Shown piece after piece: positions 6,515-34,075 of a stretch of 35,745 bases of DNA. The stretch's first letter is position 1. Each line of letters begins with the position of its first letter. The stretch is from an uncultured delta proteobacterium (GTDB lineage: Bacteria; Desulfobacterota; Syntrophia; Syntrophales; Smithellaceae), in the NCBI GenBank assembly GCA_903904655.1, contig CAIVDK010000242.1, positions 1-35,745 on the forward strand, in the 5' to 3' direction. A model generated the notes under the pieces. The model did no database searches. It saw nothing but the letters and a program-made list of their open reading frames with translations, and was not told where the DNA came from. The translations under genes and the position numbers were made by a program.

Positions 6515-6516
6515 GG

Positions 6517-11947: not shown

Positions 11948-11962
11948 GGTCCATTACCTATT

Positions 11963-12202: not shown

Positions 12203-12204
12203 GT

Positions 12205-13266: not shown

Positions 13267-13267
13267 C

Positions 13268-14458: not shown

Positions 14459-14629
14459 GATTTTACCTCCTCTCAACACCGTTCATTTTTTTGGTCCTAA
14501 AGCCCGAATAAAATCCCGACTAAGCCTGCCTTACCGGACTTTATTTTTTCATTTCTACATCATTTTAATAATAAATAACAATTTATAATTTTGATAATAT
14601 TAATCAGTATTATTCATGAAAGACTGGCC
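14459..14629. promoter_or_regulatory. Divergent control region between dsrA and the broken lysR copy
   Basis: This AT-rich 171-bp stretch separates the first dsr gene from the lysR remnant. At 14596-14614 is a dyad (AATATT, seven bases, ATTATT), at the same distance from the lysR start as a better dyad at 34109-34127 before the intact lysR. Nearer dsrA is a direct repeat TCGGG-attttat-TCGGG on the dsrA strand. I see no convincing -35/-10 pair. LysR control of dsrA through the retained site is inference. Confidence 0.45.
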
Positions 14630-15292: not shown

Positions 15293-16387
15293 TTATTTTA
15301 TCTCTTCTCTCTTCCAGTTCGCAGGCCACCATGCAGCCGGCTTGATCTGGGGGTGCTGATTTTCTTTAGCTAACATATTGATATTACTGTATAACTTTTG
15401 TCCGTTGATCCCTTTAGCTTGCATTTCCTGAAGCCACTCATCTGTGATGGGTTGTACGGCTTTTCGCCACCGAGCTTTTTCCTCAGGTGGCAGGATGTAG
15501 ATATCATCTCCCCTCTTCTTGAGCTGGGATAAGATGGATTCCCTGCCTTCATCTACCAATGTTCCCAGCAGTATGGTAAGTGATGGAGCGAGTTCCTCAA
15601 ATACCTTCTGAACATCCGGAGGGAGGGAATTCCACTTGTCTAAGTTCATGGCCGTAGGCTGCACGGCCGAGGCGGCGCGAATGATGACATGGTGGTTGAC
15701 CATGTCCGTCAATTTGAAAGCGGCCAGAGGCGTGGTTGGAAATAGCACACCTTTGATGTCCCCCCTTTGCAGGGACATGGTCACGTCCTCGGCCTTAATA
15801 GCCCGGGGAGCGCCTCCAAGAAGCTGAATGATTTGCACGGCGGTTTTTGACCCTCCAAAAAGGGGCAGGCCTTTCATGTCTTCCATTTTTTTCGGCCCCG
15901 GAACCACAAGATGCAGGTTGAGAGCGTCGATATTGTGCACGGCCAGGATCTTTAAACCGTCAAATTCCTTCTTATACTCTGGAACGGTTGTAAGGATTTT
16001 ATAGGTGGTTAAATTTGCCTGTATTCCTGATTCAAAGAGAAATGGGAGGTTGAAAGATCGGGTTACGGGGAACTTGCTCTCTTGAGCCCATACGGGCACA
16101 AACATGGCCATATCAATCACACCGTTTTTTACGGCCTCATGCAGCTGGTTTGCTTTGACCAGGCTTCCTCCATGATACCATTTGAATTTTACTTGCCCTT
16201 TTGTTCGCTTTTCAATTTCAGCGGACCAGGGTAGAAAACCCTTCTGAAACATGGGATGCTTTTCTGTATCGTGGTTTCCCACCCTAATTTCAATGGTTGC
16301 CGCATGGACCACTAACCCTGAAATGAAAAAACCAAAAATGAACATGATACATGCAATACTTAGTGCTGCTTTCTTCTTTGTCATCAT
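15293..16387 (-). CDS. TRAP transporter solute-binding protein (DctP family)
   Basis: DctP-type proteins bind an organic acid-like solute in the periplasm and hand it to a DctQM permease. The 364-residue protein has an N-terminal signal (KKAALSIACIMFIFGFFISG, ending near VVHAA). It then has typical family pieces: GNHDTEKHPMFQKGFLPW, MEDMKGLPLFGG and WNSLPPDVQKVFEE. The start has two adjacent ATGs (16387 and 16384); AAGGAGG is four or seven bases upstream, so the second may be the one used. It follows the fused permease gene by 101 bases on the same strand. The substrate cannot be read from the sequence; carboxylates and sulfonates are the usual class. Confidence 0.93.
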   Translation of the reverse strand: MMTKKKAALSIACIMFIFGFFISGLVVHAATIEIRVGNHDTEKHPMFQKGFLPWSAEIEKRTKGQVKFKWYHGGSLVKANQLHEAVKNGVIDMAMFVPVWAQESKFPVTRSFNLPFLFESGIQANLTTYKILTTVPEYKKEFDGLKILAVHNIDALNLHLVVPGPKKMEDMKGLPLFGGSKTAVQIIQLLGGAPRAIKAEDVTMSLQRGDIKGVLFPTTPLAAFKLTDMVNHHVIIRAASAVQPTAMNLDKWNSLPPDVQKVFEELAPSLTILLGTLVDEGRESILSQLKKRGDDIYILPPEEKARWRKAVQPITDEWLQEMQAKGINGQKLYSNINMLAKENQHPQIKPAAWWPANWKREEIK

Positions 16388-16488
16388 ATAACCTCCTTAT
16401 TAATTATCTTATTAATTATCTTATTATCTATGAAAGTTGACCTATTTTCACTACATTCATCCTCCTTTATGTTATTTTTCGAGTCCGA

Positions 16489-18417
16489 CTATTTTATTTC
16501 CGCAAGAGTATCCATGGCATTGGGCAGAAGCAGGGCGATATCCGGAAATATCGTTAACAGGACAATGACGGCAACCATCACCAGGACGAAAGGCAATACT
16601 CCCTTGAAAATTGTTCCCATGGGGACACCGCCGGCGATGCCATGGATCACAAAGACGTTCATCCCAACAGGAGGTGTGATCTGCCCCATTTCCATCATGA
16701 TGACCATAATGACACCGAACCAGATAGGGTCAAACCCCAGGGCCATGATGGTGGGAAACAAGACCGGCAGAGTAACCATGACCATCGGTATAATATTCAT
16801 CAGCATACCAAGGATCACGTAGAGGAACAGGATAATTGCCAGAAGCAGATACCTTGAGACATTAAGATTTTTCAGATAGCCCGCTAAGTCAGAGGGTATG
16901 TCCGTTAGTGTAAAAAAATTTCCTAAAACGCCAACACCCACCAAGATGACTAAAATCATAGCCGTCATTTCAGTAGTTGTATGCATGGCCCTGATAAGTT
17001 TTTTACGCGATAAACCTCCGCTGATTACAGCGACAACCAAGGCGCCTATGGTGCCCAGCGCAGCCGCCTCTGTAGGCGGCATGATGCCGGAGTAAATTCC
17101 CCCGATCACAAGGAAGATAAGGAAGACAATTGGCCATACGTCCTTGGCGCTTGATAGTTTTTCTTTCAATGATGTTGAAGGCCCCGGGGGGCCTAGTGCA
17201 GGGTTCCACTTACAGCGCAGATAGACCATAAGAGCAAATGCAAGGCACAGGATAATACCCGGTAAGATACCCGCCATGAACAGTTTTGCAATCGATTGCT
17301 CGGTAACGAGCGCATACGCAATAAAGCCTATGCTGGGCGGGATGAGAATCCCCAGCGTTCCTCCTGCAGCAACTGAGGCTGTTGCCAGCGATTCGTCGTA
17401 TCGATAACGTTTCATCTCCGGAAGCGCTACGGATCCCATGGTGGCCGCCGTAGCCATGCTATCTCCGCAAATCGATGCGAATCCACCGCAACCGAATATC
17501 GTTGCAATGGCCAAACCTCCAGGAATACGGCCAACTAATTTAGACGCTGCATTAAAAAGTCTGGCTCCAATGCCGGATTCATAGCACAGATAACCCATGA
17601 GACCGAAGAACGGAATCACGCAAATGTAATAGTGGGCAAAAGCATCATGAAGGTTTAGCCTTAAAACGGAGAAGGCTACTTCAATGCCACTGATATACCA
17701 TAGTCCCAGAAGTCCCATCATAGCCATTGAAAAACCAATGGGAAAACCGATTAACATTACACTGATGAGAAGAGAGACAAATATAATGCCGACTGTAGAA
17801 CGGGGAAGGTCCGGGTTAAAGAATTTCAGCCAAAGAGGAAGTATTGCTAATGCAATGGCGATCACCGCCATTAGGCTTGCCTGAAGCCATGGTCGCTTAT
17901 TGGCTTTAAACATTTCGGCCAGATAGCCCAGCATCTGTCCGAATAAAACAAGAGCTACCAGAGCATATCCAATGACGGCAATGATATAAATCGGCGTATA
18001 AGGGATCATGCTGATGCTTGCTCTTTCACCAGCCTCGTATGCTTCAATAGCGCGTATTACAGATTGCCAAGAAATGATCGAGAAGAGGGCGAATCCCCAG
18101 ATGGAAAAGACGCCGCCCAGGAAAACTTTAACCTTGCTTGATAATTTGGCATTAAGGAGGTCTACACTCACATTTCCTCCCTTAAGAGTTGTATAAGCGA
18201 AAGACAAGAATCCGACCAGTACCATCATAAAGGTTTCAAGTTCAATCAGACCGGAAAACTCATAATTAAAGATAAACCTGGTGAATACGGATAACAGAAT
18301 CAGGAAAGCCATAGCGAGAATCAGAACGCCGCTTGTGAAGGAAAGCCAGCGAGTCAGTGGTTCCATAAAACTGTTTAATCGGTTTTTCGCAAAATTCAAA
18401 TACACTGACGCTCTCAT
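16489..18417 (-). CDS. TRAP transporter fused DctQM permease
   Basis: This 642-residue membrane protein joins the small DctQ subunit (about residues 1-185, four membrane segments, with WLSFTSGVLILAMAFLILLS near the front) to the large DctM subunit (about 190-642). DctM signatures include GFPIGFSMAMMGL, GDSMATAATMGSVALPEM, LGILIPPSIGFIAYAL and GGIYSGIMPPTEAAALG. It drives Na+- or H+-coupled uptake with the DctP protein encoded next. The fused form is common. Upstream lie a 237-bp gap with a palindrome and the Lin0512 gene on the same strand. Confidence 0.94.
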   Translation of the reverse strand: MRASVYLNFAKNRLNSFMEPLTRWLSFTSGVLILAMAFLILLSVFTRFIFNYEFSGLIELETFMMVLVGFLSFAYTTLKGGNVSVDLLNAKLSSKVKVFLGGVFSIWGFALFSIISWQSVIRAIEAYEAGERASISMIPYTPIYIIAVIGYALVALVLFGQMLGYLAEMFKANKRPWLQASLMAVIAIALAILPLWLKFFNPDLPRSTVGIIFVSLLISVMLIGFPIGFSMAMMGLLGLWYISGIEVAFSVLRLNLHDAFAHYYICVIPFFGLMGYLCYESGIGARLFNAASKLVGRIPGGLAIATIFGCGGFASICGDSMATAATMGSVALPEMKRYRYDESLATASVAAGGTLGILIPPSIGFIAYALVTEQSIAKLFMAGILPGIILCLAFALMVYLRCKWNPALGPPGPSTSLKEKLSSAKDVWPIVFLIFLVIGGIYSGIMPPTEAAALGTIGALVVAVISGGLSRKKLIRAMHTTTEMTAMILVILVGVGVLGNFFTLTDIPSDLAGYLKNLNVSRYLLLAIILFLYVILGMLMNIIPMVMVTLPVLFPTIMALGFDPIWFGVIMVIMMEMGQITPPVGMNVFVIHGIAGGVPMGTIFKGVLPFVLVMVAVIVLLTIFPDIALLLPNAMDTLAEIK

Positions 18418-18654: not shown

Positions 18655-19053
18655 TCAAATTGGTTCCTTTTCCCAGGCCTTGAGAACTTTGCCCATATCT
18701 ACGAATATGGTGATGGCTGCGTTGGCCATAACAACATCTGCTGTTTTATCACCAAACGCTTCGGAAAATGCTATAGGTACCAACAAACCACCCTCAATAA
18801 CTTCAATCTGCTTTCTGCCAAAGGGCAGGGCATTGAGAATAATGTCCTTTTTAACAGAGGTAGGATTGGGGCATCCTATGAGGACATGAACTATCATTTC
18901 GTTGGGGTCACAAATCCTCAAGATTTCCATTATCCCGGCCAAACAGATTCGTCTCACAGCATCTTCGATAGCTCTTGTGGCAGCTTTCGTGGAGTCCTGT
19001 CCATGCTGATCAATGCCGGTTCCCATTTCGATAACAAATCTCTTAAGTGCCAT
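18655..19053 (-). CDS. Lin0512-family conserved protein of unknown function
   Basis: The 132-residue protein begins MALKRFVIEMGTGIDQHGQD and continues TKAATRAIEDAVRR, a pattern I recognise as the Lin0512 family (named from a Listeria protein). Its biochemical role is not known to me. It has no signal peptide or membrane segment and is probably cytoplasmic. It is the first gene of a minus-strand group with the fused TRAP permease and binding protein, so it may act on the imported compound. The GTCAACAAAC-type AT-rich region after its stop suggests a second promoter for the transporter rather than tight coupling. Confidence 0.75.
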   Translation of the reverse strand: MALKRFVIEMGTGIDQHGQDSTKAATRAIEDAVRRICLAGIMEILRICDPNEMIVHVLIGCPNPTSVKKDIILNALPFGRKQIEVIEGGLLVPIAFSEAFGDKTADVVMANAAITIFVDMGKVLKAWEKEPI

Positions 19054-19486: not shown

Positions 19487-19801
19487 ATGATTGAAGAAAT
19501 GACAGACGACACATTTGCTAAGCAGACTGCCCAAGGGATTTGTCTGGTACTTTTTTACAAGAACCCCTGCCCATACTGTCAAACCATGAAGGGTGTGGTT
19601 GAAAAATTTGGGGGTAAGAGTCCGGGTGTTAAGCTATTACAGATTAACGGTCTGGAGCATACAAAAATGGCTGCTCAATTGGGTGTTGAAAGATTCCCTG
19701 ATATTTTCTTCTATAAGGATGGCCTACCAACAATAGCCAGACAGAAGGGGATGACGAATTACCAGGGACTGATGGCGCTTTTGCAGACTATTAAGCACTG
19801 A
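19487..19801 (+). CDS. Thioredoxin-like protein (CPYC)
   Basis: The 104-residue protein has a thioredoxin fold with active site NPCPYC (Cys28, Cys31). A cis-proline follows in RFPDIFFYKDG. CPYC is the glutaredoxin-type active site rather than the CGPC of housekeeping thioredoxins. I start at the ATG at 19487, with GAGGAGC six bases upstream; a GTG at 19472 would place the ribosome site inside the gene. It leads a plus-strand series and is followed 38 bases later by a thioredoxin reductase-like gene, its likely electron donor. The target may be one of the enzymes encoded downstream. Confidence 0.9.
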   Translation: MIEEMTDDTFAKQTAQGICLVLFYKNPCPYCQTMKGVVEKFGGKSPGVKLLQINGLEHTKMAAQLGVERFPDIFFYKDGLPTIARQKGMTNYQGLMALLQTIKH

Positions 19802-19839
19802 TCAGACCGCAAAAGAGAAGAGCTTGGAGAGTAAGAGAT

Positions 19840-20763
19840 ATGGAACAATATGACATTGTTATTCTCGGTGGAGGAATAGCCGGACTCACCGCTGCCGTAT
19901 ATGGGGTTCGGGCCGGTCTTAAAACATTGGTTTTAGAAAAAAACACATGTGGGGGCCTGGCAAACTGGGCAATTGAAATTGAGAATTTTCCTTCTCATGA
20001 GAAGATCGGTGGCCAGGATTTGATGACACGAATCAAAAGCCAGGCTCTGAATCTGGGCGTAGAAATCCGGGAGATTATAGAAGTCGAAGGGATTCAGCTG
20101 GAAGGTCGTTCCAAAGAAATCAAGACAGATGACGGTATTTTTTATTCGAAAACTATAATCGTGGCCTCCGGCCGTGAGCCTATTCCGCTTTCAATCATGG
20201 TGGACAGTGATCACATTCATTACTGTGCCATCTGTGATGGAACGGCTTATCGGGGAAAGGATGTTTTGGTGGTCGGCGGCGGAAACAGTGGAGTATGCGA
20301 TGCTTTGTATCTGTTGAACCAGGGAGTAGGAGGTATTACACTGATCGAGCAGATGGATCGTCTTTTTGCTGCTAAAGTTAGCCAGGAGGCCCTCTTGGCC
20401 CGCCCAGAAGTAAACGTGATGACCTCAACAGAGGTATGTGGCCTTACCGTTGACGGGGATAGCCACCGGGTCACCCTGAGAAATACGCAGACAGCGGCCC
20501 GCCAGGAGATCGAAGTAAGGGGAATTTTCGTTTATATTGGGCAGGTGCCGCATACCAGCTTGTTCAAAGGAATCCTCGAGTTGGATGAGCAGGGCTATAT
20601 TCAGGCAGACGAAACCATGCATACCAACCTGGAAGGCGTTTTCGTGGCTGGAGATGTCAGAAGGAAAAAATACCGTCAATTGACAACCGCCATGAACGAC
20701 GGAACCATCGCGGCCCTTGAGGCGGAAGAATATATTCACAAGAATGCAAGGATGACTAAATAA
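19840..20763 (+). CDS. Thioredoxin reductase-like flavoprotein
   Basis: This 307-residue protein matches low-molecular-weight thioredoxin reductase. It has an N-terminal FAD fold (ILGGGIAGLTAAVYG) and an inserted NAD(P)H domain (VLVVGGGNSGVCDALYL). The redox pair is CAIC (Cys129, Cys132) before DGTAYRGK, and the C-terminal FAD motif is GVFVAGDVR. It should reduce the thioredoxin encoded just upstream. The electron source (NADPH, NADH or ferredoxin) cannot be fixed by eye. The next gene follows after 24 bases. Confidence 0.9.
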   Translation: MEQYDIVILGGGIAGLTAAVYGVRAGLKTLVLEKNTCGGLANWAIEIENFPSHEKIGGQDLMTRIKSQALNLGVEIREIIEVEGIQLEGRSKEIKTDDGIFYSKTIIVASGREPIPLSIMVDSDHIHYCAICDGTAYRGKDVLVVGGGNSGVCDALYLLNQGVGGITLIEQMDRLFAAKVSQEALLARPEVNVMTSTEVCGLTVDGDSHRVTLRNTQTAARQEIEVRGIFVYIGQVPHTSLFKGILELDEQGYIQADETMHTNLEGVFVAGDVRRKKYRQLTTAMNDGTIAALEAEEYIHKNARMTK

Positions 20764-20787
20764 AAAACGAAAGAGAGGAATTAGTTT

Positions 20788-22347
20788 ATGCCAAAAAACG
20801 CAATATTTATTATGTTGGATTCGTTTCAGTTCAACTATATGGGCTGTTACGGTAACAAATGGATGAAAACCCCGAACATAGACCGATTGGCCAAGGAAGC
20901 CATGGTTTTTGATAATGCCTATACTGAAGGACTTCCTACGATTCCCTGCCGACGGGCGATGATGACCGGCCGCTACACGCTGCCTTCCAAGGGCTGGGGA
21001 CCACTTGATCCGGATGATACCACTATAGCCGATATGCTATGGGGCAAGGGCGTGCATACGGGGCTAATTTTTGACACGCCTCCTATGCGTTTGCCTAAGT
21101 ACGGCTATCAGCGAAGTTTTTACGATGTCATCTACGGTCAACATGGCCATGAACTGGATTATGAATACTACCGTCATGATGCAGTGAAAAATGACATGAA
21201 GTATGAAGATTACCTGGATCAGAACATCATTGATAATTTCAGAAAAGATCCGGCTTTCGAACCCTACATTGACCACAATATCGATGAAATAAACTGTATC
21301 CTCAGAAGTCGTCAAAACTGGAAAAATGAGGAAGAAAGCATGCATGCTGCCGTGCTGGTGAACAAGGCAAAAGCCTGGCTGGAGGAGCGCACCAAAGATA
21401 AAGAACATCCGTTCTTCCTGTGGTTCGACTGCTTTGACCCACATGAACCTTTCGATCCCACATCCGTTTGGGAAAACTTCCCCTGCCCGTATGATCCAGA
21501 CTACAAAGGTAAGGAAATGTTTCTGCCGGCGATGGGTCCTGCCAAGCACTACACCGAAGAGCAGCTCCATCATGTCCGCATGCTTTGGGCAGAGAAAATG
21601 ACACTTGTGGACAAGTGGGTCGGGAAACTCCTGGATAAAGTGAAAGAGCTGGGGTTATGGGACAATACGATGATCATCTTGTGCGCTGATCACGGTCATC
21701 CTACCGGCCATGGCGAACACGGCCATGGAATTGTGCGCAAGGTCCATCCCTGGCCCTACGAAGAACTGGCACACATTCCCTTGATTGTGAGGATGCCGGG
21801 TGTTGGCGAGGGGAAACGTAATGCCTCTTTCGTGCAGTCGGTCGACATTACTCCGACAATCCTTGATTGGCTACAGACTCATCAGGAAGCCGCGCATTAC
21901 GGTAAGCATGTTTTGGATTCTAGCGTGAGCAATGTGGACTTCCAAGGATTCAGTTTGCTACCACTGATCCGGGGCGAGAAGGAAAAACTGCGTGACTTTG
22001 CCATTGCCGGTTTCTACGGCTATTCTTGGAGCATCATCCGGGATGATTATTCCTTCATTCATTGGATCAAGAAAGCGAATGCCGAGACCTATGAAGAGAC
22101 AATGGAAATGGTCAATATCATGTACGATTTTGGCGGGGGAGCCGGTGGAAAGTTTTCGAAAAGCTCGCAGACGGAAGAAATGTGGTCGTGCACTCCGGGA
22201 GACATTGTATTACCGGCCGAGGATCAGCTTTTCGACCGTAAGACAGATCCTTTCCAGCTCAAAAACATCATCAAGGAAAAACCAGAAGTCGCCAAGGAGC
22301 TTCTGCAGCAGTTAAAATTGTACATGGCTGAGCTGAAGGCAAGTTAA
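20788..22347 (+). CDS. Sulfatase-fold hydrolase with Thr at the nucleophile position
   Basis: The 519-residue protein belongs to the alkaline phosphatase/sulfatase superfamily (PF00884 type). Metal-site pieces are present: IMLDSFQFNYMGCYG near the start, and ADHGHPTGHGEHGHG with Asp301 and His302. A canonical EELAHIPLIVRMPG follows. The catalytic motif, normally C/S-x-P-x-R before TGR, reads TIPCRRAMMTGR, placing Thr51 at the formylglycine position while Cys54 sits in the variable slot. It therefore cannot form formylglycine there. Thr-type members may be phosphodiesterases, phosphonate hydrolases or phosphotransferases rather than sulfatases. No signal peptide is visible, so a cytoplasmic substrate is likely. 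It sits after the thioredoxin pair in the same direction. Confidence 0.85.
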   Translation: MPKNAIFIMLDSFQFNYMGCYGNKWMKTPNIDRLAKEAMVFDNAYTEGLPTIPCRRAMMTGRYTLPSKGWGPLDPDDTTIADMLWGKGVHTGLIFDTPPMRLPKYGYQRSFYDVIYGQHGHELDYEYYRHDAVKNDMKYEDYLDQNIIDNFRKDPAFEPYIDHNIDEINCILRSRQNWKNEEESMHAAVLVNKAKAWLEERTKDKEHPFFLWFDCFDPHEPFDPTSVWENFPCPYDPDYKGKEMFLPAMGPAKHYTEEQLHHVRMLWAEKMTLVDKWVGKLLDKVKELGLWDNTMIILCADHGHPTGHGEHGHGIVRKVHPWPYEELAHIPLIVRMPGVGEGKRNASFVQSVDITPTILDWLQTHQEAAHYGKHVLDSSVSNVDFQGFSLLPLIRGEKEKLRDFAIAGFYGYSWSIIRDDYSFIHWIKKANAETYEETMEMVNIMYDFGGGAGGKFSKSSQTEEMWSCTPGDIVLPAEDQLFDRKTDPFQLKNIIKEKPEVAKELLQQLKLYMAELKAS

Positions 22348-22578
22348 GATTTCTTTACCAGGCCCAGGCGTAAAGAATTATGAAAAGAGTATGCCTGAAT
22401 TATTGGAGGCCAGAGGTGATCATAGATGGCGGGGTATTTGGGAAACTCGCCATCCATCACCACAATATCTTGCGCTATGGAAAAATAATTTTGAAAATAA
22501 GCGGCGTGATTCAAAGAACAGCTTTTTTACCGGGTGGAACATGACATTGATGTGCATATATATTTCAAGGAGATTTAC

Positions 22579-22875
22579 GTGCAAATCGTTTTCCGAATTT
22601 TCGACAAGGATACAAATCGTGCTCAGTGGACAGAATCGATTCTCTATGAAAGCATGAAGGCCAATAAGATCGAAGGAAAGGTGAGCCAGGTATGCTGCCT
22701 TCAGGAATTCGGCCGACAGGGTGTCAAACAACTTCCCGCGCTGGAGTTGAATGGAATGATGCTGTCTCAGGGAAAACCACTGACTGAGGCCACAATGGCC
22801 GAAACTTGCACCAGGCTGGCGTACGCCCTTCAAAAAATGGGGAAAGCCGGAAAGGAAGTTCTTATCAAAAGTTAG
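22579..22875 (+). CDS. Small thioredoxin-fold protein lacking the N-terminal CxxC
   Basis: The 98-residue product resembles the small redox-active disulfide (Thioredoxin_3-like) family. It has a beta-alpha-beta start and then GVKQLPALELNGMMLSQGK, the typical cis-Pro (Pro53) and following strand-turn. The place where the family carries CxxC reads KDTNRAQW, with no cysteine; instead an adjacent Cys39-Cys40 pair occurs in SQVCCLQEF. It may be a binding or scaffold subunit rather than an oxidoreductase. I start at the GTG at 22579, with AAGGAG six bases upstream; a longer reading from 22534 lacks a ribosome site. It lies between the sulfatase-fold and SDR genes. Confidence 0.65.
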   Translation: MQIVFRIFDKDTNRAQWTESILYESMKANKIEGKVSQVCCLQEFGRQGVKQLPALELNGMMLSQGKPLTEATMAETCTRLAYALQKMGKAGKEVLIKS

Positions 22876-22926
22876 TTGAGAAGCCTTTGCACAAAACAAA
22901 TAAATAAAAAAAGGTAAGAGATCACT

Positions 22927-23688
22927 ATGAGCAAAATGTTTAACGGTGAAGTCGCACTTATAACTGGTGCTAGTTCGGGGATCGGCAGGGCTGTCGCCAT
23001 GGCCTTTGGCGCCGAAGGTGCCCGGGTGGCTGTTTCCGGCCGCAACAGTGAAGAATTGGCCAAAACGGTGAATATGGTTTCGACCAATGGCGGCGAGGCC
23101 TTCGCCGTTAAGGCCGATGTGTCCAAAACAGCTGATGTTCAGGCTATGGTCGCGAAAACTGTCGAGCATTTTGGTGCACTGAACTTTGCCATCAATAATG
23201 CCGGAGTCGCTGGTGATGTTTTTGTGCCGACTGTCAACTACTCAGAAACCACCTGGGACAATGTCATTGGCATTAACTTAAAAGGGGTGTTTCTTTGTAT
23301 GAAGTATGCGCTTCCTCACCTCTTGGCAACAAAAGGTAGCATTGTTAATATTGCTTCTACATCAGGCTTGGTTGCAGGACCGATTGGTTGTGCCTATGTT
23401 GCCAGCAAGCATGGTGTTGTGGGGCTGACAAAGGCGGCGGCACTCGAGTATGCCGACAAGGGTGTGCGCATCAATGCAGTAGCTCCGGCAGTTATCCTTA
23501 CGGAAATGACCGAACGTGGCGGCATCAATGATCCGGCTATCGCAGCCATGATGGTCGCGAAGCATCCCATGGGGCGCATTGGCAGGCCGGAAGAAGTAGC
23601 CAATGCCGTGCTGTGGTTGTGCTCAAAGGGAGCGTCTTTTACGACAGGGCATACCTTGGCAGTCGATGGCGGCTGGTTGATTCCATAA
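22927..23688 (+). CDS. Short-chain dehydrogenase/reductase (SDR)
   Basis: The 253-residue protein is a classical SDR that oxidises an alcohol or reduces a ketone with NAD(P). It shows the nucleotide-binding TGASSGIGRAVA, the NNAG motif, the catalytic YVASK (Tyr157, Lys161) and the usual C-terminal FTTGHTLAVDGGW. SGRNSE after the second strand, with Arg, leans toward NADP(H), but this is not decisive. It precedes a sugar-type aldolase, a kinase and another dehydrogenase, so it may turn a polyol or hydroxy compound into the ketose that the kinase phosphorylates. Its composition is closer to the genes before it than to the AT-rich trio after it. Confidence 0.92.
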   Translation: MSKMFNGEVALITGASSGIGRAVAMAFGAEGARVAVSGRNSEELAKTVNMVSTNGGEAFAVKADVSKTADVQAMVAKTVEHFGALNFAINNAGVAGDVFVPTVNYSETTWDNVIGINLKGVFLCMKYALPHLLATKGSIVNIASTSGLVAGPIGCAYVASKHGVVGLTKAAALEYADKGVRINAVAPAVILTEMTERGGINDPAIAAMMVAKHPMGRIGRPEEVANAVLWLCSKGASFTTGHTLAVDGGWLIP

Positions 23689-23756
23689 TTGTTAAAGAAT
23701 TCATGCTAGTTGAACGGAAATATGCCCTACATTTTTATTAAAAAAGGAGGATAAAA

Positions 23757-24611
23757 ATGGGACTTGTTACTATGGTTGAAATATTGGACAAAGTACACGC
23801 CAATGGCACGGCTGTTCCTGCTTTTGATGCTATTGATCATGCTTCTGTTGAGGCAATAATTAAGGCTTCGGAATCAATTAATAAACCAGTGATTATTATG
23901 GTGCCTGAAGCGGCTTTACCGTTAATTGATGTTGATAACTATTTTGAGTATTTAACTTATCGCCTGGGTAAAACGAAAGTCCCTGTTGCGTTGGAGCTTG
24001 ATCATGGAAAGAGCTTTAATGTGATTATGAAAGCAATCCATGCTGGATTTACCGGTGTAATGATTGATGGATCAGATTTACCCATTGAAGAAAACATTTC
24101 ACTTACAAGAAAAATTGTCGAAATTGCCCACGCGGCAGGCGTTAGTGTCGAGGGTGAAATTGGTCATGTTGCAGGAGGTGAAGGAGACATGACCGAAGGG
24201 AGTGAAGCTGATGAAAATATGTATACCAAACCTGAGGATGCAAAGCGGTTTGTAGAAGAAACTGGAGTTGATGCGCTTGCGGTTGCCATTGGAACAGTAC
24301 ACGGTGTATATAAAGGTACACCCAAGCTCGATTATGAACGTTTGAAAAAGATTAAAAACATTGTAAATGTTCCACTTGTTTTGCATGGAGGTTCAGGTGT
24401 CGCAAAGGAAGATTTCGTTAAAGCTGTGGAAAACGGAATCAACAAGGTCAATCTATTCACTGAAATATCAATGGCAGCTGTTGCACAAAGCATCAATTAC
24501 GCTCAAAAAAAGCAAAACAAATTACACTTTGCGGAACTTGTATTGATCGCTAATAAAACAGTCAACGCAATTGCATTAGATTATCTAAAACTTCTCAGCC
24601 TGGATAATTAA
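23757..24611 (+). CDS. Class II (zinc) ketose-bisphosphate aldolase family protein
   Basis: Class II aldolases cleave ketose phosphates to dihydroxyacetone phosphate plus an aldehyde. The 284-residue protein has the zinc-ligand regions ALELDHGKS, SVEGEIGHVAGGEGDMTEG and VLHGGSGV. It also has KVNLFTEISMA at the phosphate-binding end, as in FbaA, GatY and KbaY. The start has AAAGGAGG upstream. A paired kinase follows 56 bases later, so the substrate is probably the product of that kinase and need not be fructose bisphosphate. Codon use is markedly AT-rich (22 of 60 G+C in the line at 24001), unlike the dsr region or the AOR gene. Confidence 0.92.
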   Translation: MGLVTMVEILDKVHANGTAVPAFDAIDHASVEAIIKASESINKPVIIMVPEAALPLIDVDNYFEYLTYRLGKTKVPVALELDHGKSFNVIMKAIHAGFTGVMIDGSDLPIEENISLTRKIVEIAHAAGVSVEGEIGHVAGGEGDMTEGSEADENMYTKPEDAKRFVEETGVDALAVAIGTVHGVYKGTPKLDYERLKKIKNIVNVPLVLHGGSGVAKEDFVKAVENGINKVNLFTEISMAAVAQSINYAQKKQNKLHFAELVLIANKTVNAIALDYLKLLSLDN

Positions 24612-24667
24612 GGTTCTGTTAACAAAAGGTGAGAAAGAGAGACCAATAAAACAATCTGGAGGAAATT

Positions 24668-26227
24668 ATGAGTAAATACATCATTGCTATTGACCGTGGA
24701 AGCACCAATGTTAAGGCAGTTGTCTTTGACAAAGCTGGTAATGAAGTTTTTGTTTCATCTGTTGCTAGCCAGAAACCTGTTTCTGTACATCCTGGATGGT
24801 GGGAACAGGATATGAATATTATGTGGGAAGGGACGGTACAAGCCATCAAGGGTGTTTTCGAAAACAGCAAGTGTGATGCTTCTGGGCAGTCAGCTTTCTC
24901 TAAACGATCATTTAATGAAATTAAGGCTGATGACATTCTCGGAGTAATTGTCACAGGCCAGGGTAATGGTCTGATGCCCGTCGACAAAAACGGGAATCCA
25001 TCTCGAATGGGGATTTTATCATTGGATAGTCGAGGCGCTGAAATTCATAACAGTTGGATGGCAGACGGCAGGTATATGCAGGCCGCTCAGATTGTTGGTA
25101 TGCCTTTCCCTGCCGGGTCACCGCTTCCCTTGCTTTCTTGGTTTGAAAAGAATCAGCCCGAAGAATTCTCAAAAATAGACAAAATTCTGTTTTCAAAAGA
25201 CTGGATTCGTTTTAAGCTTAGCGGAACTTTGTGTACGGATCAGACGGATGCCAGTGGTGCCGGCCTGATGGCGCTTGCAAAAAATGATTACGCATGGGAT
25301 GTTTTCAATCTGCTTGGCCTTAAGTCAATCAAGGATAAACTTCCAACAATCGTTCCTTCTCATACAGTTGTTGGGGCAGTCACGCGTGGTGCAAGTCTTG
25401 AAACGGGATTGAGAGAGGGAACTCCGGTTCTTTGTGGAGCTCATGATATTGCTGCTTATCCATTTGGTGTTGGTACACTTGATTCAAAAGAACTTGTAAC
25501 GGTTGTTGGAACCTGGGGACTGAATCTCATAGCTACGAAAAGTCTTGAAGGTGCCATAGCAGCTCTGTATCACTGCGTTCCGGGGTATTTTATTACGGGG
25601 CTTGGCGATGGCAACTCTGGCGGATGTCTCGACATTATTGTGGATACAATTTGCCAAAACGAGAAATATCAAGCAGCTCAATTTCAAAAATCGGTTTATG
25701 AAGTGATTGAGGAAGAAATCGAAAAGACAAAACCATCAAGCATTATATTTCAACCATACATTTTTGGCAGTTTGATGAACAGTTCAGCGAGCGCTGGATT
25801 CTGTGGTATTAAGAACTGGCACACAAAGGCCGATATTATGCGTGCTGTTTATGATGGAATTGTCATGGGGCATTATGCATATGTTCAAATGATTCCTGGA
25901 CACGAATCATTTAAATCAATGTGGCTCATTGGTGGTGGCGCAAAAAGCAAAGTATTTGGTCAGATTTTTGCCGATATAACGGGTTTGACCGTTAAAACGA
26001 CAGAGACGCATGAAATCACTGCGCGCGGTGGAGCGCTGAATGCTCTTGTAGGTCTCGGTATCTGCAAATCTCATGAGGACGCATGCATTTCACCTGAAAT
26101 TTCGAAGTTGTATGAACCAAATTTCCAGCGGCACGAATTCTATCAAAAGAAATTTGGGATTTTCAATCAGCTTAGTCAGACAAACGCAGAAGTATGGTCT
26201 ACTCTAAATGAAATGAATAAAAATTAA
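24668..26227 (+). CDS. FGGY-family carbohydrate kinase (LyxK/EryA/YoaC-like)
   Basis: The 519-residue protein is an ATP-dependent sugar or polyol kinase. The phosphate-1 motif is IAIDRGSTNVKAVVFD, GQGNGLMPVDKNG lies in the first domain, GTWGLN in the middle, and the C-terminal FGGY region contains GGGAKSKVFGQIFADITG. The overall pattern is nearer to L-xylulose and erythritol kinases and to Bacillus YoaC than to xylulokinase or glycerol kinase. CTGGAGG precedes the ATG. It is 10 bases from a YoaD-like dehydrogenase, echoing the B. subtilis yoaC-yoaD pair. The substrate is unknown. It is AT-rich and probably acquired together with its neighbours. Confidence 0.9.
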   Translation: MSKYIIAIDRGSTNVKAVVFDKAGNEVFVSSVASQKPVSVHPGWWEQDMNIMWEGTVQAIKGVFENSKCDASGQSAFSKRSFNEIKADDILGVIVTGQGNGLMPVDKNGNPSRMGILSLDSRGAEIHNSWMADGRYMQAAQIVGMPFPAGSPLPLLSWFEKNQPEEFSKIDKILFSKDWIRFKLSGTLCTDQTDASGAGLMALAKNDYAWDVFNLLGLKSIKDKLPTIVPSHTVVGAVTRGASLETGLREGTPVLCGAHDIAAYPFGVGTLDSKELVTVVGTWGLNLIATKSLEGAIAALYHCVPGYFITGLGDGNSGGCLDIIVDTICQNEKYQAAQFQKSVYEVIEEEIEKTKPSSIIFQPYIFGSLMNSSASAGFCGIKNWHTKADIMRAVYDGIVMGHYAYVQMIPGHESFKSMWLIGGGAKSKVFGQIFADITGLTVKTTETHEITARGGALNALVGLGICKSHEDACISPEISKLYEPNFQRHEFYQKKFGIFNQLSQTNAEVWSTLNEMNKN

Positions 26228-26237
26228 GGAGAAATCA

Positions 26238-27281
26238 ATGAAAATCGTATGTGCTTGCGATTTGGCTATCAACCCAAATGTAATGTCTACTATGAAAGAC
26301 CTTGAAAAATTCGGAGCAGAGGTTGTGTTGTTCGAAGACAGTCAAATGCAGACGCCAAAAGCAATTACCGAAGTAATGATTCAAACAGAGCAACATGGCG
26401 CTGATTCAAGTCCTGCAAATCCCGAATTAATTGAACTTTGTAGAGATGCAGATGTAGTTGTCGTTCACGCTTCGCCAATTAATTCAGAAGTACTTAATAA
26501 AGCAGAAAAACTGAAATATATAGCGGTTCTGAGAAGCGGAATTGAAAATATCAATCATGATATTTGCATTACCCGTGGAATTAAGGTTATAAGTGCTCCT
26601 GGACGAAGCGCCCATGCCGTTGCGGACTGCACATTGGGACTTATGTTAGCCGAAGCTAAGAATATTGCGCGCGGTCATAAGGCACTAATGGAAGGAAAAT
26701 GGATTAAGAAATTTGTCAATTTTAACTTTATCCATGACCTTCGGAATTGCACGATCGGAATAATTGGTGTGGGCCAAGTGGGACAGAAGGTTATCGATAG
26801 GCTGAAAGGATTTGGCCCGGAAATTATTGTTCATGATCCGTTCATGACGAATGAACATTTACAGTCTCTCGGCTACACACCAGTGACGATTGAAGAGTTG
26901 TTGAATGCATCTGATTTCGTTTCAATTCATCTGCGTCTTTCCGATAAAACTAAAAATTTTATTGGGGAAAAGGAACTCTCAATGATGAAGCCCACAGCCT
27001 ACTTTATTAATACTGCCCGTGCTGGCCTAGTCGATGAAGACGCACTTGTTTCAGCATTGCAGAACAAAAAGATTGGTGGGGCAGCACTTGATGTATTCAC
27101 TGAGGAGCCACTCGATAAGGATAATCCACTCCTGAAACTTGACAATGTGACCCTCACACCACATGTAGCTGGAACCTCTGTAGATACATTTACAACTTCT
27201 GTAGAAATAATTAAAAATGCTTTGACCGAAATGTTTGAAGACAAGCCAATTAGTGGCTTGGTCATTTCGTCTGTGAAATAA
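26238..27281 (+). CDS. D-2-hydroxyacid dehydrogenase, 3-phosphoglycerate dehydrogenase-like (YoaD-like)
   Basis: This 347-residue NAD-dependent dehydrogenase has the Rossmann motif GIIGVGQVGQKVIDRL. The catalytic Arg is in NTARAGLVDEDAL, the Glu in FTEEPL and the His in TPHVAGTSVD. It lacks the C-terminal ACT domain of full-length SerA. TAAGGAG precedes the ATG, 10 bases from the kinase stop. It may oxidise a phosphorylated 2-hydroxy acid made in the same pathway; serine synthesis is less likely given the neighbours. It is the most AT-rich gene of the group (19 of 60 G+C in the line at 26461). A small hairpin follows the stop. Confidence 0.9.
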   Translation: MKIVCACDLAINPNVMSTMKDLEKFGAEVVLFEDSQMQTPKAITEVMIQTEQHGADSSPANPELIELCRDADVVVVHASPINSEVLNKAEKLKYIAVLRSGIENINHDICITRGIKVISAPGRSAHAVADCTLGLMLAEAKNIARGHKALMEGKWIKKFVNFNFIHDLRNCTIGIIGVGQVGQKVIDRLKGFGPEIIVHDPFMTNEHLQSLGYTPVTIEELLNASDFVSIHLRLSDKTKNFIGEKELSMMKPTAYFINTARAGLVDEDALVSALQNKKIGGAALDVFTEEPLDKDNPLLKLDNVTLTPHVAGTSVDTFTTSVEIIKNALTEMFEDKPISGLVISSVK

Positions 27282-27297
27282 CCCCGGGTTTCTGGGG
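27282..27297 (+). terminator. Short hairpin after the hydroxyacid dehydrogenase
   Basis: CCCCGG and CTGGGG pair around a GTTT loop (six pairs, one of them G-U). It starts right after the stop codon. The following sequence is AT-rich but not a T-run, so this is at best a weak terminator. It marks the boundary where GC-rich sequence resumes. Confidence 0.35.
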
Positions 27298-27393
27298 CAG
27301 ATATATAAAATCATATTAATATGGCCAATCTAATATTTTTTTAAATGTTGCGATTTAAATGTGATCCCTGAAGCATGCGACCGGAGGGTTTCC

Positions 27394-27810
27394 ATGAGTT
27401 ATTCCATAACTGAGTTGTGCAACGGATGCGGAGCCTGCGCCAAAATGTGCCCGGTGAAGGCGATTTCCGGCGAAAAAAAAGAAAGACATATCATCAATGC
27501 AGCCCTCTGCATCGAATGCGGTAGCTGCGGCAGAATATGCCCTGAATCAGCCGTTCTGGATGATCAGGGAATCACGGTTGCCAGGATGAAGAAGGCGGAC
27601 TGGCCGAAACCGGTCATCAACTCGGATCTTTGCTCGGCCTGTGAAAACTGTGTGGCTGTCTGTCCTACCCATGCGTTGGCTATGGCCGATGAACGGCTGC
27701 CTCTGACGAAGAACCGGGCGGTACTGGCGCAACCCGCCAAATGCGTTTCCTGCGGCTGGTGTAAAAATAACTGCCTCTTCGACGCCATCACCATGGGAGG
27801 TGCAGCATGA
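27394..27810 (+). CDS. Polyferredoxin with four [4Fe-4S] motifs
   Basis: The 138-residue protein carries four cysteine groups in a row: CNGCGACAKMCP, CIECGSCGRICP, CSACENCVAVCP and CVSCGWCKNNC. Two back-to-back bacterial ferredoxin domains are implied, with one cluster cysteine group ending in NNCLFDAI instead of CP. The ATG at 27394 has CGGAGGG six bases upstream; a GTG at 27361 lacks support. It overlaps the AOR start by ATGA, so it is translationally coupled and is almost surely the electron acceptor for AOR. It lies 112 bases after the AT-rich trio and has the GC-rich composition of AOR. Confidence 0.92.
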   Translation: MSYSITELCNGCGACAKMCPVKAISGEKKERHIINAALCIECGSCGRICPESAVLDDQGITVARMKKADWPKPVINSDLCSACENCVAVCPTHALAMADERLPLTKNRAVLAQPAKCVSCGWCKNNCLFDAITMGGAA

Positions 27811-29681
27811 AAGAGATTCTCGGAACCAGCAACAAGTACCTCGATATTAACCTGACCGACAAAACCTGGAAAATCCACCAGGCAACTCAGGATGATTTGA
27901 AGATGTTTTTAGGCGGCAAGGGCCTGGGGCTCAAGATATTCTATGACAAGCTGAAAGATAAACTGGGTGATGTGGACCCTCTGGGACCGGATAACCTGCT
28001 CATCTTTGCCAACGGCGTGCTCCTCACAACCGGAGCGCCCTGTTCGGCTCGGTTCGAGGTCATCACTAAGTCGCCGCTGACCGGCTACATGGTGGCCTCC
28101 TCCTGTGGTGGGCCTTTCGGCGAAGCCTGCAAGACCGCCGGATGGGATGGCATCATCATCTCCGGCAAGGCCCAGAAGCCGACGGTGATTCGCTTTGACG
28201 ATCAATCAGTCATCTTCGAGGATGCGGATGATCTATGGGGAGCCAAAACGCATGATACCCAGGAGAGACTCCACCTGGGTCCGAAGGAAGCCGCCGCCGT
28301 GATTGGACCCGCCGGTGAGAACAAAGTCTTCTATGCTAACATCTGCTCCGGCCACCGCTTTGCCGGTCGCGGGGGTGTCGGCGCGGTCATGGGCGCGAAG
28401 AACATCAAAGCCATCGTGGCCCGGGGCAAGGAATATCGCTGCGTACCGGTGAACCGGGAGAAGTTTGAGAAGACCATGAAGAAGGCCAAAGCGCATATCG
28501 CGCGCAGCCCGTTCACCAAAGGGTACAAAGCCTTCGGCACTAACATGAATACGCGTTTCGGCATCGACTCGGGCTACACTCCGGTACGAAACTTTCGTGA
28601 CAGGTATAGTCCCAAGACCGGGGCCATCACCGGTGAGGTCATGGCCGAAAAGTATCAAACGCGGCATTCAACCTGCCGCTACTGTTCGGTGCTTTGTGGA
28701 CACAAGGGCATGTATCCCGACGGAAAGATGCGGCAGATTCCGGAATACGAGACCACCAGCCTGTTCGGCAGCAACATTGAAAATTATGACACGGACAAAA
28801 TCGGGATCTGGAATGACATCATGAACGATATGGGGATGGATACCATTTCCGCAGGGGGAACCATGGCCTGGGCGATGGAGGCCGGTGAAAAGGGACTGCG
28901 TAAAACGGAGCTCTCCTTTGAGAATCATGATAACATTGCCCGCATCCTGGAGGACATCGCCTACCGTCGGAATGAGGGCGCGGAGCTGGCCGATGGATCG
29001 AAGCGTATGAGCGAGAAATACGGCGGCAGGGAATTTGCCATCCATACCAAAGGACTGGAGATCGCGGCCTATGATCCCCGGGCTTGCTGGGGACACGGAC
29101 TTTCCTACGCGGTGCACAACAAAGGCGGCTGTCACCTTGGATCTTATCTTGTGGGTCTCGAGGTGATCATGGGCTTTATGCCGCCTCAGACAAAGATGGG
29201 CAAGGCCTCCTGGGTCGTTTTCTGCGAGGACCTATTTGCCGGAATCAACTCGCTCCAGACGTGCCTGTTCACGGCTTTTGCCATCCTGACGGAGCCGGTT
29301 GTTCCGAAGTACTTCCCGCTGGCGGTTCTGAACGTCGCCACCATTTTGAACCCCGGGATGTCTCAGATGTTGATGAACTGGAGCGTTTACTCCGACTTTT
29401 TCTCCGCCATCACGGGCATCCCAATGAACCAGTGGCAGTTCAAAAAGGCAGGTGAGCGCATCACCAAGCTGGAGCGCTATATGAACGTGCAGATGGGACA
29501 GACACCGTCCGAAGACACATTGCCTGACCGGTTTACGAAAGAGGCAGTGACCAAGTATCCCGTAAATTCCGTGGTGCCCATTTTGCCGATGGTGAAACAA
29601 TATTACGGTATCAGAGGCTATGACCCCAAAACCGCTGGCCCCACGGTGAAAAACTTGCAACGTCTTGGGATTTCGGCTTGA
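27807..29681 (+). CDS. Aldehyde:ferredoxin oxidoreductase (tungsten/molybdenum AOR family)
   Basis: AOR-family enzymes oxidise aldehydes to carboxylates, passing electrons to ferredoxin through a tungsten bis-pterin and a [4Fe-4S] cluster. The 624-residue protein has the typical start (YLDINLTDKTW) and GGKGLGLKIFYDKL. It also has PAGENKVFYANICSGHRFAGRGGVGAVMG split across the pterin-binding domain. Cluster ligands CRYCSVLC (Cys290, 293, 297) are followed by a fourth Cys486 in LQTCLF. Length matches the family. It is coupled to the polyferredoxin. Its neighbours suggest it removes an aldehyde released by the aldolase or works in the reverse, acid-reducing direction; the substrate is unknown. 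Confidence 0.94.
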   Translation: MKEILGTSNKYLDINLTDKTWKIHQATQDDLKMFLGGKGLGLKIFYDKLKDKLGDVDPLGPDNLLIFANGVLLTTGAPCSARFEVITKSPLTGYMVASSCGGPFGEACKTAGWDGIIISGKAQKPTVIRFDDQSVIFEDADDLWGAKTHDTQERLHLGPKEAAAVIGPAGENKVFYANICSGHRFAGRGGVGAVMGAKNIKAIVARGKEYRCVPVNREKFEKTMKKAKAHIARSPFTKGYKAFGTNMNTRFGIDSGYTPVRNFRDRYSPKTGAITGEVMAEKYQTRHSTCRYCSVLCGHKGMYPDGKMRQIPEYETTSLFGSNIENYDTDKIGIWNDIMNDMGMDTISAGGTMAWAMEAGEKGLRKTELSFENHDNIARILEDIAYRRNEGAELADGSKRMSEKYGGREFAIHTKGLEIAAYDPRACWGHGLSYAVHNKGGCHLGSYLVGLEVIMGFMPPQTKMGKASWVVFCEDLFAGINSLQTCLFTAFAILTEPVVPKYFPLAVLNVATILNPGMSQMLMNWSVYSDFFSAITGIPMNQWQFKKAGERITKLERYMNVQMGQTPSEDTLPDRFTKEAVTKYPVNSVVPILPMVKQYYGIRGYDPKTAGPTVKNLQRLGISA

Positions 29682-30284: not shown

Positions 30285-31016
30285 TCACGAATTAATGTCA
30301 ATATCCCTTTCAAAAGCATAGATAGTTGTCAGCTGTTCTTGTATTGCCAGAGGTTTGTTGTCTGCAAGAAAAGCGATCAATGTGCGGTGAAAAATCGGAG
30401 AGCCTTTAGGAATTTCAAGATGCTTCGATGCTGCGGCGTCACAAAACCATGGTCGAATGATTTGCTTGATCTTCACTAGGGTTAAATCGGCGACGACAGT
30501 TTTTATTGGAGATTTATGAAGTTTGGTCTTGGCAACTTGTTTGTATCGCCATGCAGGGACAAAAAGATTGTTAAGGCTCCGCCTTCGGTCATCCGTTTTT
30601 GATATTAGGACAAAGTGTAATTGATAAATTCTATTTTTATTCAAAACATTTTCATGGTTTTGGAAAACAGCATTGATGTGGTTCGGAATATCTACCCAAC
30701 CTGACGATAAAGGTAAAACTTTTTCAGATAGCAGCCGATCTTGAATTTCTCGTATAGCTGAAGACGGAACCCATAAATCGCGGTTCGGACTTTCCTTTAC
30801 GATTGTTCCAACACGCGTTTTTCGGGAAATTAGTCCCTCTTTTTCAAGCATTCCCATCGCCTTACGAATCATTCCATGGCTGATAGAGGTTTGCTTGCTT
30901 AACTCATCGATGCTTGGTAGGCCGGATCCCGGGGGGCGGTCACCAATCATAATTTCTTGCTTCAAGTGTAAATATAATTGAAAATATAAGGGAATGTGTC
31001 CTTTTGTATATGTCAT
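30285..31016 (-). CDS. GntR-family transcriptional regulator with UTRA domain (HutC subfamily)
   Basis: The 243-residue protein has an N-terminal winged helix typical of GntR (IPLYFQLYLHLKQEI, then LPSIDELSKQTSISHGMIRKA and LEKEGLISRKTRVGTIV). A C-terminal UTRA-type effector domain ends in IFHRTLIAFLADNKPLAIQE. Regulators of this class sense a sugar, amino acid or related metabolite and usually repress their neighbours. The likely targets are the catabolic series to the left and GAPDH to the right. A TGTCGACA palindrome at 31128-31135, about 110 bases upstream of its start, is a possible operator. It is moderately AT-rich. Confidence 0.88.
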   Translation of the reverse strand: MTYTKGHIPLYFQLYLHLKQEIMIGDRPPGSGLPSIDELSKQTSISHGMIRKAMGMLEKEGLISRKTRVGTIVKESPNRDLWVPSSAIREIQDRLLSEKVLPLSSGWVDIPNHINAVFQNHENVLNKNRIYQLHFVLISKTDDRRRSLNNLFVPAWRYKQVAKTKLHKSPIKTVVADLTLVKIKQIIRPWFCDAAASKHLEIPKGSPIFHRTLIAFLADNKPLAIQEQLTTIYAFERDIDINS

Positions 31017-31519: not shown

Positions 31520-32518
31520 TTATTTCATAACGAACGACAAGAGTTCCATCATTCTGCTGCAGAATCCCCATTCATTGTCGTACCACGAAAGAATCTTAAC
31601 CATTTTCCCGCCAATCACGGTCGTGTTCGACATATCAACTATTGAGGAATGAGGGTTGCCGCTGAAATCACGAGAGACTAATTCTTCTTCAGAACAGGAG
31701 AGGATGCCTTTCATGGCCCCCTGTGCATAAAATTTAAGTTTTGCATTGACTTCCTGTTTATTGGTTTCCTGGGACAGTATCGCTACAAAATCCACAATGG
31801 AGACATTCGGGGTAGGTACGCGAATGGCTAGTCCATCGAGCCTCCCTTTCATTTCCGGAATGACTTCAGAAATCGCTCTTGCAGCCCCCGTTGTAGTCGG
31901 TATCAGGGAAAGCGCTGCCGCTCTTGCTCTACGTAAGTCTGTGTGTGGTTCATCCTGCACTACCTGATCATTAGTATAGGCATGGATTGTTGTCATCAAA
32001 CCATATTCCAGACCAAACTCTTGATTTAGTATTTTGACAATCGGCGCCAGACAGTTGGTCGTGCAGGAACCCATGGATATCACATGATGCTTTGTCGGGT
32101 CATAGACTTCCTGATTGACCCCCAGCACAACTGTTACGTCTGGTTCTTTAGCCGGGGCGGAGATAATTACCTTTTTGGCCCCTGCCTTAAGGTGTTTTTC
32201 TGCACCTGCCCGGTCGGTGAACTTGCCGGTGCTCTCCAGTACTGCATCCACACCCAAGTCTTTCCATGGCAAAACATCCGGGTCCCTCGCAGTAAAAGTT
32301 TTAATTTCTCTACCATCAATAATAATGCAGTTATTACCCGCCTTGATATCCGCATCCATCCTGCCATAGATGGAATCATATTTCAGCAAGTGGGCAAGCA
32401 CTTTGGCATCTGCGATGTCATTGATCGCCACAAATTCCACATCCGGATTTTTATATCCAGCTCGAAAAACCAACCGGCCAATTCTTCCAAATCCATTGAT
32501 TGCAATCTTTATTTTCAC
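31520..32518 (-). CDS. gap: Glyceraldehyde-3-phosphate dehydrogenase, type I
   Basis: GAPDH converts glyceraldehyde 3-phosphate to 1,3-bisphosphoglycerate. The 332-residue protein begins with the NAD-binding INGFGRIGRLVFRA and carries the catalytic Cys152 in SCTTNCLAP (preceded by SMG rather than the commoner SNA). It has His179 in TIHAYTNDQ and the C-terminal SWYDNEWGF. Asp34 in AINDIAD fits NAD specificity. The GTG start at 32518 has AGGAGG five bases upstream. As a gene next to the island's aldolase and kinase, it would take triose phosphate into lower glycolysis; it may equally be the housekeeping or gluconeogenic enzyme. Confidence 0.96.
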   Translation of the reverse strand: MKIKIAINGFGRIGRLVFRAGYKNPDVEFVAINDIADAKVLAHLLKYDSIYGRMDADIKAGNNCIIIDGREIKTFTARDPDVLPWKDLGVDAVLESTGKFTDRAGAEKHLKAGAKKVIISAPAKEPDVTVVLGVNQEVYDPTKHHVISMGSCTTNCLAPIVKILNQEFGLEYGLMTTIHAYTNDQVVQDEPHTDLRRARAAALSLIPTTTGAARAISEVIPEMKGRLDGLAIRVPTPNVSIVDFVAILSQETNKQEVNAKLKFYAQGAMKGILSCSEEELVSRDFSGNPHSSIVDMSNTTVIGGKMVKILSWYDNEWGFCSRMMELLSFVMK

Positions 32519-33923: not shown

Positions 33924-34075
33924 AATGGCTTTCTCCTGTGGATATGAAAAGAGCTATTCATCCTGCAGCGTCGTTAATCCCGCTGCTGCAAGACGAGCGT
34001 TAATTTTCCGCAGCGAGCTCGAGAGGTGGTTAATGAAATTGCTCTGCTGACTTTTACTGCTTGCAGGATATATCT

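Follow-up and report, generated by a model that had tools for sequence, protein, structure and literature searches.

A Thr-type sulfatase-fold enzyme with a dedicated thioredoxin pair in a catabolic island near a dissimilatory sulfite reductase operon: a possible route from organic sulfo compounds to sulfite

We analyzed a 35,745-nucleotide stretch of DNA from an uncultured delta proteobacterium of the family Smithellaceae (GenBank assembly GCA_903904655.1, contig CAIVDK010000242.1; hereafter the window), in which ten plus-strand genes (positions 19487-29681) lie near a dissimilatory sulfite reductase (dsr) operon. A previous reading, made from the sequence alone, had taken these genes for a single conserved pathway degrading a polyol- or sugar-like ester or acid. 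The ten genes are instead a composite of three parts, i.e. (1) a core around Hyd, a Thr-type enzyme of the sulfatase fold, (2) a class II aldolase and FGGY kinase pair, and (3) a ferredoxin with a tungsten aldehyde:ferredoxin oxidoreductase (AOR). The reading that we favor, with a probability of roughly 0.42, is that they form a composite catabolic island of a sulfite respirer, whose core would free the sulfur of an organic sulfo compound as sulfite for DsrAB. The conserved core consists of a thioredoxin (Trx), a thioredoxin reductase-like flavoprotein (TrxR), Hyd, a small Cys-less Trx-fold protein and an uptake system. The thioredoxin pair is the heart of this system, because Trx, TrxR, the small Trx-fold protein and a transporter are what stays with Hyd from one locus to another.

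An alignment-based scan of 84,980 species genomes returned 79 loci, 49 of which belong to the close Hyd subfamily (a single-sequence scan of the same collection returned none). Counting as partners genes on the same strand and within 4 kb of Hyd, TrxR was found in 29/49 of these loci, Trx in 27/49 and a relative of the small Trx-fold protein in 19/49, with several contigs ending near the Hyd gene. The Hyd-Trx-TrxR association is close to certain, and the set spans several Desulfobacterota lineages, SAR324, one Chloroflexi metagenome-assembled genome (MAG) and one Phycisphaerae MAG. The window Trx and TrxR are 71% and 70% identical to those of locus L064, where Hyd is only 44% identical; the closest Hyd is that of L021 (74%), where the Trx/TrxR pair is 37-44% identical. 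The pair is therefore closest to one locus and Hyd to another, i.e. individual partners were swapped but the pairing itself persisted. Hyd was missing from 58 genomes of the same genus, family and order and was present in 6/395 genomes of a Desulfobacterota phylum sample; because of its absence from these 58 relatives, the core was probably acquired by the window genome.

The other genes around Hyd vary greatly. Adjoining transporters are of at least six unrelated types, namely TRAP, TAXI-type TRAP, TTT, MFS, DASS/CitMHS and NhaC-like (TTT and some MFS assignments were made by reading sequences); relatives of the window DctP adjoin Hyd in other loci and relatives of DctQM do so in nine. Many unrelated downstream genes accompany Hyd from locus to locus. 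The diversity of transporters suggests different carbon skeletons that have one removable group in common. The Desulfoluna-type loci are the smallest. Besides Hyd, Trx and TrxR they comprise a regulator, a transporter of the DASS type and an EamA exporter; genes for carbon catabolism are lacking, which is what one would predict if the cell is after the sulfo group. A gut MAG of Candidatus Mailhella merdavium (L030, L031, L034, L038, L045, L046 and L052) holds at least eight Hyd paralogues; the majority have a transporter of their own, a Trx adjoins only a few, and the genome is a possible organosulfate specialist. MttB-family methyltransferases and corrinoid proteins, identified by reading sequences, lie near Hyd in L049 and L060, a hint of quaternary-amine sulfate substrates.

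The window genome, estimated to be 100% complete, has DsrA and lacks both AprA and ATP sulfurylase (Sat), i.e. it does not hold the set of Sat, AprA and DsrAB by which dissimilatory sulfate reducers are recognized, and sulfite, not sulfate, could therefore be respired by this organism. Most species of its genus (relatives G001-G020) also carry DsrA. Among the Hyd carriers, 25/30 have DsrA above cut-off, four of these 25 without AprA, and 22/30 have AprA. For comparison, DsrA was found in 190/395 (48%) genomes of the home phylum, 15/52 of SAR324 and 6/201 of a Chloroflexi sample. The Chloroflexi carrier, which has DsrA and carries TusA and DsrE2 directly upstream of its Hyd, is the informative one because DsrA is so infrequent in that sample. 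The enzymes next to Hyd point to organic sulfate esters as the substrate class: SdsA-type alkyl sulfatases (PF14863) follow Hyd in L057 (three) and L059 (one), together with TAXI-type TRAP transporters, and PF00884-type sulfatases lie near Hyd in L021 and L063. On these sequence grounds it is probable that the substrate of the Hyd core is an organosulfur compound. The sequence-only reading had seen sulfite respiration as an outlet for electrons from the pathway; the adjacency stands, and supplying sulfite respiration is probably what the core is for, with more to it than a sink for electrons. Enzymes of the IslA, HpsG, SuyAB, Xsc and YihQ types were not found among the annotated frames of the window, the rest of the genome not having been searched for them.

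Hyd (20788-22347) matches the sulfatase superfamily profile PF00884 with 146 bits against a cut-off of 25 (E 1.9e-42). The Thr-type enzyme proposed from the sequence alone is real: the nucleophile position, T51 (..EGLPT-IP-C-R..), is Thr in 51/51 subfamily members, and where formylglycine-type enzymes have C/S-x-P-x-R all 51/51 have T-[I/V]-P-x-R. D11, T51, R55, H219, D301, H302 and K318 are invariant in the subfamily alignments. Two features mark the clade (support 100/100), namely Cys468 (C468) in a W(S/T)CTP loop, present in 51/51 members, and a GEHGHG insert behind the D301-H302 motif; the distant Thr-type relatives that we examined have neither. Two more cysteines, C233 and C20, are almost invariant. 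The AlphaFold model of Hyd (pLDDT 83.9) matched the S1 sulfatase 6hr5 best (Z 34), and YejM was also among the structural matches; the fold search listed sulfatase-fold relatives only and says nothing on other folds. Hyd falls far below the NCBIfam cut-offs for PehA (107.5 of 900 bits) and choline sulfatase (86.4 of 433 bits). A Pfam scan of Hyd returned alkaline-phosphatase-type families only, and thus no match to CysH, the 3'-phosphoadenosine 5'-phosphosulfate (PAPS)/adenosine 5'-phosphosulfate (APS) reductase. A wide family of Thr-type sulfatase-fold proteins lacking C468 and GEHGHG (L070-L099; Planctomycetota, Armatimonadota, Chloroflexi, Bathyarchaeota and others) appears to be uncharacterized.

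The window Trx (19487-19801; PF00085, E 3e-13) has a CPYC active site, and the CPxC motif is kept in 28/28 aligned thioredoxins. TrxR (19840-20763) was identified by alignment with thioredoxin reductases in the PDB and scores 261.9 bits with TIGR01292, below the cut-off of 343; its redox motif, C-[AS]-[ILV]-C-D-G, is found in 31/31 aligned reductases. These 31 reductases lack the HRRxxxR NADPH motif, and their second Rossmann strand ends in Glu (in one case Asp), which suggests NADH or another electron donor. The small Trx-fold protein (22579-22875; Thioredoxin_3, E 2e-4), which starts at a GTG codon after AAGGAG, has no CxxC motif; its model (pLDDT 90) matched thioredoxin 1ilo best (TM 0.62/0.75).

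We tentatively propose a reductive, thioredoxin-coupled chemistry for Hyd. The TRAP system would import an organic molecule that bears a sulfo group and is most likely a sulfate ester; its R-O-SO3 group would be activated at the metal/Thr51 active site and then handed to the clade-specific Cys468, giving S-sulfocysteine. Trx (CPxC) would reduce the resulting thiosulfonate on Cys468 with two electrons, releasing sulfite and regenerating the thiol, and the neighboring DsrAB would consume the freed sulfite; the Cys-less Trx-fold protein may serve as a helper in the core. In vitro, S-sulfocysteine is reduced by thioredoxins and glutaredoxins, with cysteine and sulfite as products (PMC3528435), and assimilatory APS/PAPS reductases depend on thioredoxin or glutathione (PMC10322725). 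In a rough estimate with assumed potentials, NADH-driven reduction is favorable for esters of high energy, i.e. aryl or enol esters. We infer the role of C468 and sulfite as the product, and the more specific proposal, i.e. that Hyd is a sulfatase-fold enzyme which releases sulfo groups reductively and whose Thr/Cys site cleaves sulfate esters or activated sulfonates as an ATP-free entry bypassing ATP sulfurylase and APS reductase, has perhaps one chance in three. Searches of the open-access literature on organosulfate respiration, on reductive desulfation and on sulfatases with thioredoxin in sulfate reducers turned up no description of a Hyd-Trx system.

Some known systems resemble the one proposed here. 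Hyd shares with S1 sulfatases and phosphonate monoester hydrolases of the alkaline phosphatase superfamily the fold (Z 30-34) and the positions of D11, R55, H219, D301, H302 and K318, and differs from them in having Thr where theirs is a Cys or Ser turned into formylglycine, and in the GEHGHG insert, C468 in its W(S/T)CTP loop and the dedicated Trx/TrxR. The proposed chemistry is that of thioredoxin-dependent CysH, i.e. transfer of a sulfo group to Cys and release of sulfite by thioredoxin, and the invariant clade-specific Cys with a neighboring Trx is compatible, by this analogy, with an S-sulfocysteine intermediate. However, the fold of Hyd is unrelated to that of CysH and the substrate proposed for it is a carbon sulfate ester, which would be used with neither nucleotide activation nor ATP. 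The sulfonate respiration routes (IslA, HpsG, Xsc, SuyAB) likewise turn organic sulfur into free sulfite for DsrAB, in hosts with or without Apr/Sat, but they use glycyl-radical, thiamine diphosphate-dependent or lyase enzymes, whereas the window has an alkaline-phosphatase-fold enzyme with Trx. The SdsA/BDS1 alkyl sulfatases, which adjoin Hyd in L057 and L059 and act on alkyl sulfates, differ from it in their metallo-beta-lactamase fold, the release of sulfate and the lack of Trx.

The remaining genes of the cluster encode an SDR oxidoreductase (22927-23688; PF13561, E 1e-67), the class II ketose-(bis)phosphate aldolase Ald (23757-24611; PF01116, E 3e-86), an XylB/LsrK-like FGGY carbohydrate kinase (24668-26227; PF00370/PF02782, and TIGR01312 at 231 bits, below its cut-off), a D-2-hydroxyacid dehydrogenase (2HDH; 26238-27281; PF02826, E 4.5e-63), a polyferredoxin with several 4Fe-4S motifs (27394-27810; Pfam Fer4 families) and AOR (27807-29681; PF02730, and PDB 1aor at E 2.6e-106). 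Orthologues of the window Ald, FGGY kinase and 2HDH were absent from all other Hyd loci, and 2HDH was not found in the 58 relatives at E<=1e-60. Ald and the FGGY kinase are neighbors in a genome lacking Hyd (G396; 60-66% identity to the window, the kinase 60-62%), and Ald is 66% identical to L103:2564-3406, where an FGGY gene adjoins. We therefore regard the ten genes as composite, because the kinase and aldolase occur elsewhere without Hyd and are paired in G396. AOR was considered as a conserved partner of Hyd and rejected, only one other Hyd locus having an AOR (L064, 33% identity); the window genome has five AFOR_N matches, of which AOR is one. In the window, the alcohol freed by Hyd would pass to these locus-specific genes, with the SDR, FGGY kinase and aldolase giving triose phosphate and an aldehyde that ferredoxin and AOR would oxidize; the order of these carbon steps is conjectural. 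In L021, Hyd-Trx-TrxR is followed (8692-13326) by a sulfatase-family protein, an FGGY kinase and a RuBisCO-like protein (MtnW/OiaX-like, under cut-offs), which suggests another carbon module, using a RuBisCO-like protein.

Several observations weigh against the release of sulfite by Hyd for Dsr. With standard values and assumed potentials, NADH-dependent reduction of ordinary alkyl sulfates is unfavorable as long as sulfite is not kept very low, and DsrAB would be the sulfite sink that such esters need. In the window Hyd model, C468 lies in a loop of low confidence (pLDDT <50), so that its closeness to T51 is conjectural. Basal members (L057, L059-L062) keep C468 although no Trx pair adjoins; L059 is a partial exception, possibly having a TrxR upstream. 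Both AprA and DsrA are lacking in at least three carriers (G088, G442 and G462, all MAGs), and SAR324 may oxidize sulfur. The Dsr link is only mildly informative in the home phylum, since DsrA is common there; we had considered a strong Dsr correlation in that phylum and dropped it given this baseline. In a rival reading, Hyd is an ordinary sulfate or phosphate ester hydrolase yielding sulfate or phosphate and an alcohol, with Trx/TrxR keeping a structural or regulatory cysteine (C468, C233 or C20) reduced or serving another anaerobic sulfur step, e.g. reduction of DsrC. Enzymes of the LtaS/YejM type use a Thr nucleophile and one metal site, YejM is among the structural matches of Hyd, C233 and C20 are themselves almost invariant, and C468 is missing in distant Thr-type relatives. 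However, between loci the Trx pair tracks Hyd and not the Dsr genes (DsrC reduction was ranked low for this reason), and the window organism, having neither Apr nor Sat, could not respire sulfate as the product. Plain hydrolysis seems to us doubtful on balance, at somewhat over one chance in four.

It is unlikely that Hyd is instead a reductive desulfonating enzyme, in which Thr attack would cleave the C-S bond of an activated sulfonate and Trx would reduce the sulfo-enzyme to sulfite. The genomic evidence for a sulfite product applies equally here, the carriers include kin of sulfonate respirers (e.g. Mailhella), and phosphonoacetate hydrolase provides a precedent in its Thr-nucleophile attack on a C-P bond; against this, Hyd retains the sulfatase-type sulfate-binding residues R55, H219 and K318, the sulfur-specific enzymes found as neighbors are sulfate-ester enzymes, and a carbanion leaving group requires special substrates. 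Slightly less probable again is that all ten genes form one linear pathway from a polyol- or sugar-like ester to triose phosphate and an acid, with an incidental sulfur context. Their single strand, short gaps and families suited to hydrolysis, oxidation, phosphorylation, aldol cleavage and aldehyde oxidation agree with such a pathway, but Ald, the FGGY kinase and 2HDH are not with Hyd elsewhere, Ald and the kinase occur without it, and most loci pair Hyd with Trx/TrxR in the absence of a sugar module. The sequence-only reading had named the joint occurrence of Hyd, kinase, aldolase and AOR in other genomes as the check that could refute it, and this co-occurrence was not found. A sulfosugar substrate, with the kinase and aldolase in a split resembling the sulfo-Embden-Meyerhof-Parnas pathway and Hyd acting on a related ester, is very improbable: class II sulfofructose-phosphate aldolases exist (SqiA) and the structural relatives that match the window aldolase best include KbaY-kind class II aldolases, yet this aldolase is not specifically close to any single member, and sulfoquinovosidase, sulfoquinovose isomerase, PfkB-type sulfofructose kinase and sulfolactaldehyde reductase were not found in the window.

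The layout of the window, in contrast to the single-pathway idea, was described correctly from the sequence alone: frames, Pfam and NCBIfam bear out the ten genes, their families and both flanks. A catabolic cluster that adjoins the sulfite respiration genes and has TRAP uptake is also supported, and the remark in that reading that no described pathway with this gene set was known to it agrees with our open-access literature searches. All ten genes are open frames in the same direction, separated by 10-231 nucleotides or overlapping by four. Divergent from them on the left, and on the minus strand, lie the TRAP solute-binding protein DctP (15293-16387; NF037995, 102 bits against a cut-off of 50), the fused permease DctQM (16489-18417; TIGR00786, E 3e-100), the two together spanning 15293-18417, and a Lin0512-family protein (18655-19053; PF09585, E 3e-34) with no match in other Hyd loci at 1e-20. 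Further left, also on the minus strand, is the dsr operon (2333-14479), with DsrAB (12205-14479), a CbiA-type DsrN, DsrC and DsrMKJOP-type genes; DsrA scores 573.7 bits with TIGR02064, above cut-off, and the other genes were assigned by reading translations. Next to this operon is a gene (639-2336) for a protein that resembles CoA-disulfide reductase and carries a fused rhodanese-like part at its C terminus; it is possibly involved in sulfur trafficking. On the right are a minus-strand GntR/HutC-type regulator (30285-31016; NCBIfam GntR matches under their cut-offs), possibly the regulator of the ten-gene cluster, and minus-strand GAPDH (31520-32518), followed by a YeiH-type exporter and a YeiE-like LysR regulator (32817-35027), possibly a sulfite export or stress pair. 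No riboswitch was matched when the window was scanned with Rfam, and promoter and terminator counts were about those of shuffled sequence, with no bearing either way on an operon.

Sulfate esters are a major pool of organic sulfur, and their hydrolysis yields sulfate, which cannot be respired by organisms that have DsrAB but no Sat or Apr. If the core does release sulfite, this would explain how DsrAB-only organisms, such as Mailhella-type gut bacteria and Dsr-bearing relatives of syntrophs, could live on organosulfates, and would link sulfated metabolites of the gut to sulfide. It would also add a reductive reaction to the sulfatase fold, whose known reactions are, to our knowledge, limited to hydrolysis and transfer. 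Should Hyd prove to be a plain hydrolase, its conserved and uncharacterized pairing with thioredoxin in dissimilatory sulfur bacteria would still offer a well-defined object of study.

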